Shown here: piece by piece, positions 25,898 through 32,880 of the stretch
Position numbering within the stretch: position 1 is the first letter of the stretch
How the letters are laid out: each line of letters begins with the position of its first letter
Origin: Halococcus agarilyticus
GTDB lineage: Archaea > Halobacteriota > Halobacteria > Halobacteriales > Halococcaceae
Assembly: GCF_000334895.1 (NCBI RefSeq)
Contig: NZ_BAFM01000005.1
Span: 62,001 to 126,000, forward strand
DNA length: 64,000 bases
Reading direction: 5' to 3'
Program-made: the position numbers and the translations under genes
The notes under the pieces: generated by a model
The model's database searches: none
Seen by the model: the letters and a program-made list of their open reading frames with translations, nothing else
What the model was told of the DNA's origin: nothing

Positions 25898-26953
25898 TTA
25901 TCGGTCAAGAATCCGGTATATGTTGTTCTCGTATACATTTCGGACTCGATCGCCCCAGTTGTGGGTGTAGGTGTCGATCACGTCGTCGGCGACGTCGCCG
26001 CGGAGGTACTTGACGACACCGCGGTCGCCGGTACGATCCCGGAGGTGTGTCGTGAAGAAGTGCCTGAAGTAGTGGGGAGTGACGTTTTCGGTCGCACCGC
26101 CGCCGGACTCGTACCAGCCCATCGTTCGAGCGCGCTTCGAGACGAGCGAGCGCACCATTGGTGGCGTGAGGCGCTCTCCCCAGTCGTCCCTCGTGCTGAG
26201 AAACAGCGGTTCAGCGGCCGAAACGGCGTCAGGACGAACGGCAAGCCACCGTTTGAGCATGGCGTGGAGCTCGTCGTCGACTGGAATCATCGTCGCGCGT
26301 CGCCGCTTGTTCGAAGCACCCCGTTCCTCACCGTTGACGGCATCCCCCTGACTCACGTCGCTTGCGACGTACATCGACTCGGATCGACCGCTCAACTGAC
26401 CTCGATCGCCGAGGGGATACGCTGCGTTGAGGTCCTCATCATCGAGCGCGAGGTCCCGCAGATCGAGGTTACAGAGCTCACCCACGCGCATGCCGGTTTT
26501 CAGCAGCGTCACGAGTACTGCTTGGTCGAGCGGGTGGTCAACGCTCCCGACGAACCGGCACATCGCCGATAACGGAATGTCCCGTCTCTGAGGGTCCTTC
26601 TCGATGGTTTCGTCCATCTCTTCCACCACGAGCGCCATGGGGTTCGATTCGAACGTTTCGACCTGTGTCATGTAGGCGTAGAACCGATGTAGATAGGAAG
26701 CGTAGGTCGCTACCGTGCTCTGACTGTGCGTTGCTCTGATCGAGTGGATCCATGCCATGCACTCACGCCGTCCGGCCTCGGCCGGCATGAGTGGGCCACC
26801 GGAGCATCGGTCGGGGTCCGCGAGGAACTCCTCGAACCGCCGGAGGACACGCTCGTAGGCCTCGCGCGTGCGCTCCGAACGCCCGTGGTACTCGAGGTCC
26901 TGAACGAAATACGCGATCGCATCGTCGGTTGCCTCGGTTGCTTCAGTCGCCAT
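25898..26953 (-). CDS. Tyrosine recombinase / integrase (XerC/D-like)
   Basis: 351 aa from ATG 26953 (MATEATEATDDAIAYFVQDLEYHG); the frame is open upstream but overlaps the partner gene. A core-binding SAM-like domain (about residues 12-105: RTREAYERVLRRFEEFL ... YLHRFYAYM) is followed by the catalytic domain. Visible residues are Arg I in LLKTGMRVGELCNLDLRD, the HxxR box in TPHYFRHFFTTHL, a DTYTHNWGDRV segment and the nucleophile Tyr in VRNVYENNI. All look intact, so it should cut and rejoin DNA. It overlaps the upstream RHH-like gene by 11 bp. Such haloarchaeal pairs accompany integrated elements; no att site was identified. Confidence 0.93.
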   Translation of the reverse strand: MATEATEATDDAIAYFVQDLEYHGRSERTREAYERVLRRFEEFLADPDRCSGGPLMPAEAGRRECMAWIHSIRATHSQSTVATYASYLHRFYAYMTQVETFESNPMALVVEEMDETIEKDPQRRDIPLSAMCRFVGSVDHPLDQAVLVTLLKTGMRVGELCNLDLRDLALDDEDLNAAYPLGDRGQLSGRSESMYVASDVSQGDAVNGEERGASNKRRRATMIPVDDELHAMLKRWLAVRPDAVSAAEPLFLSTRDDWGERLTPPMVRSLVSKRARTMGWYESGGGATENVTPHYFRHFFTTHLRDRTGDRGVVKYLRGDVADDVIDTYTHNWGDRVRNVYENNIYRILDR

Positions 26954-27341
26954 CGGAGTTCTCGATAGTGTACCCTCCGTGACGGCCACTGTACCGGACC
27001 TGGTTTTCGCTCTGAAGGCGTTGGAGCGTGGTCTCGAGTCGTTCCTCGATGTTCTCGATAAGCGATTCGACGAGTTCGTCCCACGAGCAGTACCCATCGT
27101 CGAGAACGTTGAGCACTCGGCTTTCGAGGCCCTCGACCCCAGGGGCTTCGTCCACAGTATCCATTTGTCCGGCCTCGTCGGAGCTGAAGGTGAAATCACG
27201 TCGGCCAGCTTGCACCATGATCTTGATAAACTCGCTCTGACTCATCTCCAGCTCATTCGCGTGTTCTCGCCACTCTTCTTTCTGATACGCTGGAACGTAG
27301 GCTTTGACGACTTTCTGATCGGCGTCCGTCTCGCTCGCCAT
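26943..27341 (-). CDS. RHH-like integrase-associated protein (DUF5805-type)
   Basis: 132 aa. N-terminal VVKAYVPAYQKEEWREHANELEMSQSEFIKIMVQAGRR resembles a ribbon-helix-helix DNA-binding unit. The C-terminal half (GLESRVLNVLDDGYCSWDELVESLIENIEERLETTLQRLQSENQVRY) looks like a winged-helix. The recombinase start lies inside its 3' end (11-bp overlap), so the two are co-translated. Matches my memory of the DUF5805 family found next to haloarchaeal integrases. Likely role: recombination directionality factor or autorepressor; inferred from context. Confidence 0.82.
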   Translation of the reverse strand: MASETDADQKVVKAYVPAYQKEEWREHANELEMSQSEFIKIMVQAGRRDFTFSSDEAGQMDTVDEAPGVEGLESRVLNVLDDGYCSWDELVESLIENIEERLETTLQRLQSENQVRYSGRHGGYTIENSDGD

Positions 27342-27489
27342 TACGTGAGCAACGATCCGCCCTCGGTATCAATGTTCCCCTGTAGCTCTATAGACGCTCT
27401 TAGATCGCAGCCGATGACTACTCTTTTGCCAGCTGAGCCAGCAAAACAGTGTATGAAGTACCCTATGATCGTCCGGGGGTCCTGTATAG

Positions 27490-27508: not shown

Positions 27509-28398
27509 TCATAAATCAAATACGTTGTTCGTGTAGTGTATGGCTAATTCCTCAAAGGGCACTGGTTCAGACTGTCCCTTGAGTATGTGCTCACGAACGG
27601 TCGGCTGACCCGGGAACCGTTCGGCGAAAAAATATCGAAGGGTGTACGGCGTGAGACTGTTCAGTTCGGAGTCGTCGTTGGTGAATCCCAGCGATGTAGC
27701 CTGTGACTTTACTAAAGCGTGAACGGCCAGCAGAGACAATCTATTTCCCCATGACTGGGTGCTGAGGAACAGTGGGCGGAGTGACCGGTGCGAATCTGGA
27801 CGAACCATCAACCAGCACTTCAGTATCCAGCATGTTTGGCTGTCGAGTGGAATAATTGTGGTTTCTACTCGCTCTCTTCGGGGTGGGTACGTCTCCTCAC
27901 CCTCCGCCCGGATTCGAATTGCTGGGAAACCGTCTTCGATCCATTCGGACTCTCCAATACCGTATGCTTCGGAGACATCCGTATCGTTGAGAAAAACATC
28001 TCGCAGCTGTAGGTTGCAGAGTTCGCCGACACCGATACCAGTTTTGGCGAGTAGTCCGATGACCGCTCGCTTCAGCGGGTGACGAGTTGTCCGGATCAGC
28101 TTGCGAACCTCATCAATTGTCGGTAGCCACCGTTCGTGTTCCGTCTCGGTGTTCGGATCGTATACTTTTTGATCGTGCGAATCATTGTGACATGACCTAC
28201 AGACCGTTACCAAGTTCGTTCGCTTGTTCGTTCCACCACGCTGAAGTGGTACAACGTGATGTACCTCCAGATTTGCCTGTGCTCCGCAGTTGACGCACTG
28301 GCGACCATCCCGGGAGAGGATTTCTTGCCGCAACCGATTCCACTTGCGGATTCCAAACGCTGCCCTGGTTTTGCAGTGTCGGTCAACTCTTCAGCCAT
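27509..28398 (-). CDS. HNH nuclease fused to degenerate tyrosine-recombinase domain (N-terminal frameshift possible)
   Basis: Uninterrupted from TTG 28333 to the stop at 27509 (274 aa). Coding similarity continues upstream (FGIRKWNR before LRQEILSRDG), and ATG 28398 (MAEELTDTAK) joins that frame if one A is added to the AAAA run near 28370. Residues from 28333: HNH domain about 1-50 (RDGRQCVNCGAQANLEVHHV, then CRSCHNDSH, four Cys and the HH pair). From about residue 70 a recombinase catalytic domain homologous to the neighbour: TGIGVGELCNLQLRD, ILKCWLMVRPDSHRSLRPLFLST, TPYTLRYFF, HYTNNVFDL. Arg I is Gly and the His of HxxR is Tyr; the Arg and a candidate Tyr remain. The SAM-like DNA-binding domain is absent. 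Function unknown: sequence-specific nickase, immunity or regulator of the integrase are all possible. Confidence 0.8.
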
Positions 28399-30108: not shown

Positions 30109-31425
30109 TCAGGTCCCGACGTCGATCGCCCGATTGACGACGCTCTCCCCGTACATCTCGGCGAGGTCGTCGTGCTGGTCCGGGCGATTCTCGTAGACGT
30201 CCTGGAACAGGCTGACCGGCGTCATCGCGGCCTGGTAGGTCGCCTCGTCCCACATCCGATCGTTGCTGATATCGACCTCGACGCCGTCGATCGCGAGCGT
30301 CGCCGAGCGCTCCATCGCGATCGCGCCCGTGCCGGCCTCTCTCGCCGCCTCGAACTCCTCCATCGAGTCCACGATGTCGTCCATGCTCGGGACGTACTCC
30401 GCCCTGTCGAGCAGTTCCTCGCGGAGGCCGTCCTCGTCGAGTTCCTGCTCGTCGCCACCGACAGCGAGAACGTAGCTGTCACCGCTTTCGGCGAGTGACA
30501 GCCGATCGCCGCCGTAGACCTGCGTGTCGCCTTGCTCGTCGAGTTCGACCTGCTGGGTACCGTCGTCGAGGAGCCAGCTCCCGTCCTCCGGTGGGAGCGG
30601 CGATCGGTTCGCCTCGACGACCTGGCCCGGCGTCAGCGACCAGATGCCGAGCATGCCCTTGGCCTGATTGTCGGTCATGCGCTCACGATATCCCTCGACG
30701 TCGCGGATGTCGTCGTACGGCCCGTCGACCGCGATCAACCCCGCAGCACTCGCCCCTCGCGAGGTGTTGTGGCGGAGTTCGGGCCACGGCGGCAGATTAC
30801 CTGTCGGCGTGATCGCCCGCATGTCCTTGGTGTAGTCGACCTCGCCGTCGACCAGCATGAACAGGCGTTCGAGGTTGTTGGTCGGTTTGCCCATCTCCTC
30901 GCGCAGCTCGCCCATCGCGAGCTCGGCCGCGCCGCTCTCGATGATGACCGACATCGCGAGGGATCCCTCGTCGAGACCGTGCGCCTCCTCGACGATGGTG
31001 AAGAACTCGTCGGCCTTCTTCCAGTCGTCGATCCCCCCGACCTCGGGGATCACGAACCCGTCGAGATGCTCGACGGCCCCGTTCTCGGGGTCGGCGATCT
31101 CCAGCATGTGCTGGAACCCCTGGTAGCGGGTGGCTGGGCTGTCGCGGTGCCACACCACCCGTGGATGGACCTCGCCCGGGAACTCCGCACCGTTCTCGGC
31201 GAGGACCTCGACGATATTCTCTGCGCCCTCGTCGCGCATCGAGGGCGCGGTGGCGTCCTCGTTGTCCGGCACCCACACGTCGGGGGCCTGCATCCCCCGG
31301 AGTCCGCTGGCGCTCCGGATCATCTTCGCGGACTCGTCCTCGCCCTCGACCGCCGTCGGTGAGGTGAAGAACGTCCGCACGAACTTTCGGTCGTGGAGTC
31401 GCTCGTCGTGGGTTCGTCCCGTCAT
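30109..31425 (-). CDS. aceB: Malate synthase, haloarchaeal type
   Basis: 438 aa. Condenses glyoxylate with acetyl-CoA to malate in the glyoxylate shunt. The N-terminal RTFFTSPTAVEGEDESAKMIRSASGLRGMQAPDVWVPDNEDATAPSM and the blocks HPRVVWHRDSP, GFVIPEVGGIDDW, SVIIESGAAELAMGELR and DNQAKGMLGIWSLTPGQVVEAN are characteristic of the short haloarchaeal form, which is much smaller than bacterial isoforms A and G. The soluble, acidic product is cytoplasmic. It lies 165 bp downstream of aceA on the same strand, so the pair probably forms one acetate-assimilation unit. Confidence 0.95.
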   Translation of the reverse strand: MTGRTHDERLHDRKFVRTFFTSPTAVEGEDESAKMIRSASGLRGMQAPDVWVPDNEDATAPSMRDEGAENIVEVLAENGAEFPGEVHPRVVWHRDSPATRYQGFQHMLEIADPENGAVEHLDGFVIPEVGGIDDWKKADEFFTIVEEAHGLDEGSLAMSVIIESGAAELAMGELREEMGKPTNNLERLFMLVDGEVDYTKDMRAITPTGNLPPWPELRHNTSRGASAAGLIAVDGPYDDIRDVEGYRERMTDNQAKGMLGIWSLTPGQVVEANRSPLPPEDGSWLLDDGTQQVELDEQGDTQVYGGDRLSLAESGDSYVLAVGGDEQELDEDGLREELLDRAEYVPSMDDIVDSMEEFEAAREAGTGAIAMERSATLAIDGVEVDISNDRMWDEATYQAAMTPVSLFQDVYENRPDQHDDLAEMYGESVVNRAIDVGT

Positions 31426-31590
31426 CTCGGTCCCTCATCGGAGCGGATCGCGTCGATCCGCGACACGGTTCGTGTTCGGTGTGGTTCGTCGTTCATGATG
31501 CGTATCTTCCTTGTTCGATCGGGTACTTCATGGTTCGGTGTGGGTGAAAAATCGCTCCACGGAGTGTCGCGTGAAGCGACGGAACAGCGT

Positions 31591-32637
31591 TCAGTCGTCG
31601 CTTTCGGCGGTCTGGAGCTCCTGGTCGTCGTCCGAGAACCCCTCGGAGCCCTCGATGCGCGAGCGCGCCTCGGGGTCGAAGCGCATCTCGGTGTCCTGGA
31701 ACTTGTCGACGAACGAGAGCGCGTGGTGGGACTCGGTCTCGTGGCCGATGTAGCGCTCCTCCAGATCGAACTGAGCCTCCTCGCCGTTCTCGGCGAGGTT
31801 CTTCATGTCCTCGTAGGCGGCGTGCGCGCCCGAATGGAGCGCGAACAGGGTGATGAACTGGTAGACGTACCCGAGATCGCCCAGCTCCTCGAACGTCAGC
31901 GGGTCGTCCTCCGCGGACCACGCGAAGCTCGACGAGTAGTTGAACGCGAGATCGAGATCGGGGTGGGTCTCGTGGATGGTTTCGGCGTACTCCACGGCGT
32001 CCTCCCGGCTGGGATCGGGCATCTCGGGCCAGACGATGTCGACGCCGGCATCGGCGTAGAGCCGGCCGCGTTCGAGGTGTTCCTCCCAGTCGCCGTTCGC
32101 GGAGCCGTAGGCGTCGGTGCGCGCGATGATCACGGTGTCCTCACACTGCTTCGCGTCGACGGCGGCCTCGAAGCGGGCCTGGGCGTCCTCGCGCGGGACG
32201 ATCTGCTTGCCCGCGATGTGGCCGCATCGCTTCGGCGTCACCTGATCCTCGATGTGGACCGCGGCAACCCCGACCTTCTCGTACTCGCGCACCGCGCGCC
32301 GGACGTTGTGGATTCCCCCATAGCCGGTGTCGCAGTCGGCGATCACGGGGAGGTGGGTCGCCTCGACCATCCGCTTCGCGTTCTCGACCATCTCGGTCAT
32401 CGTGACCATTTCGAGGTCCGGGAACCCGAACTGACCCAACACCGTGGAGTACCCGCTCATGTAGGCGGCGTCGTGGCCCGCCATCTCCGCGAGCCGGGCG
32501 TCGAGGGCGTGGTACATGCCCGGCGCGAACACGTAGTCCTGGGTGTCGAGCATCTCGCGCAGCTCTTCGGCTGCGGGGTTGTCGATGTCCTTCGTGAAGA
32601 CGTCCGTGTCTCCGATGAGTTCTTCGGGCGTTGGCAT
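31591..32637 (-). CDS. aceA: Isocitrate lyase
   Basis: 348 aa from ATG 32637 ([14 protein letters not shown]); the open frame upstream to 32841 is Arg-rich leader. It cleaves isocitrate to glyoxylate and succinate. Evidence: [36 protein letters not shown]... start, [11 protein letters not shown] for substrate binding, [16 protein letters not shown] with the signature KRCGH and catalytic Cys near residue 130, and ARTDAYG. Cytoplasmic TIM barrel of the isocitrate lyase/PEP mutase superfamily. Transcribed ahead of aceB; it lets the organism grow on acetate or other C2 sources. Confidence 0.95.
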
Positions 32638-32839
32638 TGTGGATTCGTTCTCGTGGGTTGCGTTCGGTTTCGTGGCGTCGAGTGGGCCACGACGGCAACG
32701 GCGCTCCTCGTCCGCCAGCAGTCGCTCGCGGTCGGCGTCGTGACCCGAGCGCGCCGTCGCGTCGGCCCGCCGCGCTCGCCGCATCGCCACCCAGGACATC
32801 TCACTAAAAAAACTGTTATGGTTGATCATGATAATATTC

Positions 32840-32880
32840 ATTAATCGGTTTGTTCGGGGAGAGGGTGATTAACCGATAAT
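32840..32880. repeat. AT-rich inverted repeat between MBL gene and aceA
   Basis: Arms ATTAATCGGTT (32840-32850) and AACCGATAAT (32871-32880), imperfect by one base. It lies past the stop of the MBL hydrolase and about 200 bp upstream of aceA. It may be a terminator or an upstream regulatory element for the glyoxylate genes. Confidence 0.35.

Follow-up and report, generated by a model that had tools for sequence, protein, structure and literature searches.

What would a haloarchaeal chromosome do with a gene that carries an HNH nuclease module where a tyrosine recombinase has its SAM-like DNA-binding domain, and that lies beside an intact integrase? The gene, whose product we label HPR, was found in a stretch of 64,000 nucleotides from Halococcus agarilyticus (the window), together with the following features:

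28334 to 28398, minus strand: original N-terminus of HPR, with an ATG at 28398 (MAEELTDTAKPGQRLESA...), affected by a 1-nt deletion relative to the copy L032
27509 to 28333, minus strand: HPR, an HNH domain followed by a predicted catalytically dead Xer-type recombinase domain (274 amino acids from TTG, stop included)
28169 to 28297, minus strand: HNH domain, residues 13–55, Cys/His ligands and HH intact (PF01844, E 2.5e-11)
27512 to 28138, minus strand: pseudo-recombinase domain, residues 66–274 (alignment, AlphaFold model and structure comparison)
27386 to 27406, minus strand: dif-like inverted repeat between HPR and the DUF5805 gene, GATCTAAGAGCGTCTATAGAG
26943 to 27341, minus strand: DUF5805 gene, single copy in the genome (PF19121, E 1e-27)
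25898 to 26953, minus strand: INT, an intact Xer-like tyrosine recombinase with all motifs (start taken at ATG)

The HPR reading frame covers 27512–28333 (minus strand; TTG start, 274 codons, 293 amino acids from stop to stop). Its N-terminal part matches PF01844 above the cut-off, as do eight homologues, and the motifs CVNC...HH...CRSCH are all intact in the window copy; this domain is predicted to cut DNA. Residues 74–237 match a Phage_integrase-type domain (PF00589, E 3e-4), with a score that falls under the Pfam cut-off in the window and over it in several homologues. A domain profile search returned no SAM-like N-terminal domain in HPR, and the order of the Pfam matches (PF01844, then PF00589) bears out the substitution of this domain by an HNH module. 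AlphaFold models of the window HPR (pLDDT 82) and of the intact HPR of genome G302 (pLDDT 80) contain the same parts, and the best structural match of residues 67–274 is the archaeal XerA of Pyrococcus abyssi (4a8e; Z 20.5, 167 residues, rmsd 2.0), with the XerA of Thermoplasma acidophilum (PDB 5hxy) at Z 18.6 and the recombinase-fold repressors MrpR/YopR and SroF among the lower matches. On the basis of these models, the C-terminal domain of HPR is a tyrosine recombinase fold.

The active site of this fold was compared by alignment against eleven integrases of the DUF5805-linked kind. Arg I is replaced by Gly101 in the window (TGIG versus TGMR in the integrases) and by Gly in every intact HPR examined; the His of HxxR is Tyr230 in the window and Tyr, Val, Asn, Glu or Thr across HPRs, and the Arg of this motif (Arg II; Arg233 in the window) is retained in most. 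None of the HPRs has the nucleophile segment, which reads DTYTHNWG in the integrase, and a C-terminal helix (Y...I(F/Y).(L/I)) with an invariant Tyr (Tyr267 in the window) is kept across them. The original prediction was thus correct in the motif pairs that it quoted for HPR and the adjacent integrase, in both substitutions (that is, Arg I to Gly and His to Tyr) and in the persistence of Arg II; the Tyr that it saw persisting, however, is not the nucleophile and aligns with the non-catalytic Tyr of VYENN. Judged from the alignment, the recombinase domain is catalytically dead, having lost Arg I, the His and the nucleophile Tyr, and these changes are common to all intact family members.

The same domain order, sought in other haloarchaea, was found as the fusion or its remains at about 20 haloarchaeal loci in at least five families, of which about 8 are intact and about twelve, including the window, are broken or relic. 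Few genomes carry the full fusion: G208, G303, G339 and G393 from the family to which the window belongs; G302, G403, G090, G064, G297, G131, G307 and G414 from a second family (f4), which includes a Natrinema genome; G030 from a third; G060; and Halorussus ruber. Relics occur in G252, G156, G192 and G129. Two trivial origins were considered and rejected: a chance junction produced by a deletion, on the grounds of about 20 homologous loci, and two separate decayed genes, given the single open frame in eight intact members and dN/dS below 1 in both halves. In a tree with 59 integrases, the HPRs group together as a single clade (branch support 100/99), within which long branches make the order unsure. 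For the HPRs of G302 and G403, dN/dS is 0.15 (0.25 for the HNH and 0.11 for the recombinase part), and for the window and the broken G208 copy about 0.27; by these ratios, the family is under purifying selection in both domains. No relative with the full fusion was found in the viral contigs searched, and the plasmids and phages searched gave matches to the HNH or integrase parts only.

The window copy itself departs from the intact members at its start. The gene had been taken to begin at 28398, yet the ATG there lies in another frame, split from the HNH frame by the 1-nt deletion: relative to the same-genus copy L032 (MDKETAPGQRLDSAEWNRLRKEV...), one base is missing in TCCGC-AAGTGG, just before WNRL. 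We give a chance close to even, though short of it, to the window HPR being a pseudogene in progress from which little or no protein is made, with the family functional elsewhere. The severed original start codon and the state of the copies of the same genus (L032, L016 and L028, all broken or relics) speak for such decay, whereas no stop interrupts the 274 codons that remain, the HNH domain has all its ligands, translation could begin from a TTG at the conserved WNRLR motif, and a sequencing error may lie behind the frameshift in this draft genome of 58 contigs. A gene in decay is compatible with the homing explanation that we develop below.

What HPR lies next to bears directly on its role. 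The window DUF5805 protein has a weak ribbon-helix-helix (RHH)-like N-terminus followed by the DUF5805 domain; DUF5805 is found in 144 of 145 haloarchaeal genomes, mostly in one copy, directly precedes the integrase in the loci examined, and in several families the pair adjoins hisG. The recombinase half of HPR likewise has a good, usually single match in 388 of 391 haloarchaeal genomes, which is the DUF5805-linked integrase in every locus inspected. By this distribution, DUF5805 and INT are a near-universal haloarchaeal core recombinase pair and not an ordinary mobile-element integrase. We name INT Xer-like rather than XerA because scores stay under the curated XerA cut-off: the window INT reaches 113 of the 220 bits of the NCBIfam XerA equivalog, and no protein in 39 haloarchaeal genomes reaches it (0/39). 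As a separate observation, the N-terminal half of the window integrase (25898–26959) matches a 401-residue chain in 9i5v (E 9e-9), a ribosome structure in which the chain is labelled RaiA; either the label or the resemblance is odd.

Of 55 distinct regions upstream of DUF5805, 40 contain a conserved ATAA-N6-TTAT inverted repeat, where shuffled sequences give 0.46, and its distance to the aligned DUF5805 start is almost constant (58–85 nt); the core of the window repeat differs from this usual form. The ATAA-N6-TTAT core has the layout of bacterial dif, and the repeat could be a putative recombination site (that is, a haloarchaeal dif) or an operator of the RHH-like DUF5805 protein. Together, DUF5805, the Xer-like recombinase and the dif-like repeat would make up a near-universal haloarchaeal recombination locus, and we found no paper on DUF5805 or on this locus. 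With such a locus, haloarchaeal chromosome dimer resolution becomes directly testable at a named site.

HPR is found at the DUF5805-INT locus in 17 of 20 loci, the exceptions being G030, G208 and G307, so that the expected constant neighbourhood with an integrase and a DUF5805 gene holds nearly always. This linkage favours the main rival to homing, recombinase regulation, in which HPR would be a dead subunit with a regulatory or accessory role, meeting the Xer-like recombinase on its site through the C-terminal helix and using the HNH domain to nick, block or activate it. Retention of the helix with its invariant Tyr, although the neighbouring nucleophile segment is deleted, and purifying selection on both domains fit such a subunit, as does the behaviour of the Pyrococcus abyssi enzyme, whose C-terminal helix changes its packing and is required for recombination (PMC3646895). 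We nevertheless regard it as rather unlikely, given that more than 90% of the haloarchaeal genomes searched have the recombinase without HPR, that HPR is often lost or broken while the recombinase is intact in most, and that an HPR carried by a provirus (see below) has neither INT nor DUF5805 alongside.

The arrangements at the locus are of two main types. In type 1, HPR, DUF5805 and INT are codirectional (the window, G060, G303, G339, G393 and G414). In type 2 (family f4, Halorussus), HPR faces an INT1-DUF5805a pair that stands back to back with the resident DUF5805b-INT2; the first ~63 codons of DUF5805b, and with them its RHH-like N-terminal part, are gone, and the resident integrase is often broken. 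The truncation near codon 63 always falls near the same place (L037, L035, L107, L042 and L043). Comparison of G090 with the HPR-free G025 revealed 96–97% identity on both sides of a swap in which HPR-INT1-DUF5805a takes the place of the resident sequence as far as codon ~63 of DUF5805, and the right junctions of G302, G403 and G192 fall at almost that codon. G302, G403 and G090 each have a closer HPR-free relative (hisG 93–97%), and HPR is present or absent at the same locus between close relatives (G090/G025, G302/G163 and G403/G095). Because HPR-free close relatives exist and INT1 of the cassette clusters separately from the resident INT2 in a clade of its own, the cassette is patchy at one locus, possibly through gain by transfer or through loss by replacement. 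The resident dif-like site is altered in the window and G060, removed in cassette carriers and intact beside the intact HPR of G414. No clean empty site for the window locus was found within the genus, as in the sister species examined the core recombinase does not lie by the malate synthase flank. In the window, that flank (30109–32841) comprises a malate-synthase-like gene beside a second enzyme gene, which we take to be perhaps isocitrate lyase of the glyoxylate bypass, and the malate-synthase-like gene is present twice in one sister species (G156).

Two of the copies away from the core locus are informative in other ways. In G030, HPR comes after an additional, divergent DUF5805 and occupies the position of an integrase, an arrangement that suggests how the fusion may have arisen; this DUF5805 gene overlaps the start of HPR (L039, 9080–10379). 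In G307, HPR lies behind ParA on a circular element of 56 kb (contig C6; L132, L133 and L040), which has a 125-bp terminal overlap and also encodes a helicase and tail proteins. By its gene content, this element is a haloarchaeal plasmid-provirus that carries HPR. The provirus HPR is 62% identical to a chromosomal copy, neither INT nor DUF5805 adjoins it, and no host dif-like site above shuffled expectation was found on the provirus.

A provirus copy could also be taken to favour the role first put forward, mobile-element defence or superinfection exclusion, in which HPR would recognize and cut the attachment sites or integrases of incoming elements. An HNH nuclease joined to a recombinase-like domain could do so, and PADLOC gave weak matches to the HNH parts of restriction and Zorya proteins. 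These matches, however, are limited to generic HNH, nothing in the PADLOC defence library matched HPR outside its HNH stretches, we noticed no defence genes in the flanking sequence, and the neighbour is the near-universal core recombinase pair rather than a mobile integrase. We therefore consider defence improbable; the patchy presence, decay and provirus copy of HPR fit a homing or selfish gene better.

We tentatively favour, at somewhat less than an even chance, the reading of HPR as a homing-type, site-directed HNH endonuclease that recognizes its target through the dead recombinase domain, because homing best accounts for an HNH domain joined to a dead module, patchy presence, frequent decay and a provirus copy. 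The recognition module would be a catalytically dead duplicate of the core DUF5805-linked Xer-like recombinase, which lost the SAM-like domain, Arg I, the His and the nucleophile Tyr and still has the core that faces DNA as well as the C-terminal helix, the element through which one Xer protein docks on the next. Given that its module would have been inherited from the core recombinase, we suggest that HPR recognizes the recombinase locus, that is, the dif-like site or the recombinase bound there. The earlier proposal that the recombinase-like part does the targeting is in keeping with this fold (XerA, Z 20.5), with the retained C-terminal helix and with the precedent of MrpR (PMC10516654). 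HPR would then cut the HPR-free allele, and recombinational repair would copy HPR in, either alone (upstream of DUF5805) or as the cassette HPR-INT1-DUF5805a, which would overwrite both the resident dif-like site and the resident DUF5805 in its 5' part. After spreading, HPR would decay, as the window copy may have begun to do; of this cycle, decay is seen directly in the broken and relic copies, and invasion is what we infer.

Disruption of the recognition site by insertion is a hallmark of homing, and a disrupted site is not consistently seen in HPR-carrying alleles. As far as sequence comparison reaches, gain by homing and loss by allele replacement fit the HPR data alike, and a host function would be an equally good reason for the purifying selection seen in the recombinase part. 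The most specific form of the homing reading, in which a dead Xer aims an HNH nuclease at the haloarchaeal chromosome-resolution site, a dif-like repeat next to the recombinase gene, within a selfish cassette that can replace the host recombinase pair, is one that we consider doubtful. If homing is correct, it would show that a recombinase domain can give up catalysis and be put to new use in directing a nuclease.

No described system of this build was found in the literature searched, in which subscription journals are poorly covered, in agreement with the original prediction. HNH homing endonucleases of phages and group I introns resemble HPR in their HNH domain, patchy presence at a fixed locus and frequent decay, but they use other DNA-binding modules (to our knowledge, none uses a recombinase domain), and HPR lies next to a recombinase gene, at a locus where we saw neither an intron nor an intein. 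IscB, whose HNH domain is the best NCBIfam match of the HNH part of HPR, differs in that this match (61 bits) is far under the 175-bit IscB cut-off and that HPR is without RuvC. The archaeal XerA proteins of P. abyssi and T. acidophilum share with HPR the C-terminal fold, Arg II and the C-terminal helix, whereas HPR is without their N-terminal core-binding domain, Arg I, His and nucleophile Tyr, and has an HNH domain instead. Finally, MrpR/YopR of the Bacillus prophage SPbeta and SroF of phi3T have the tyrosine-recombinase fold in common with HPR; unlike HPR, they retain the core-binding domain, are without a nuclease and serve as phage repressors in Bacillus. As MrpR lost catalysis and became a DNA-binding repressor (PMC10516654), recombinase folds can turn into DNA binders.
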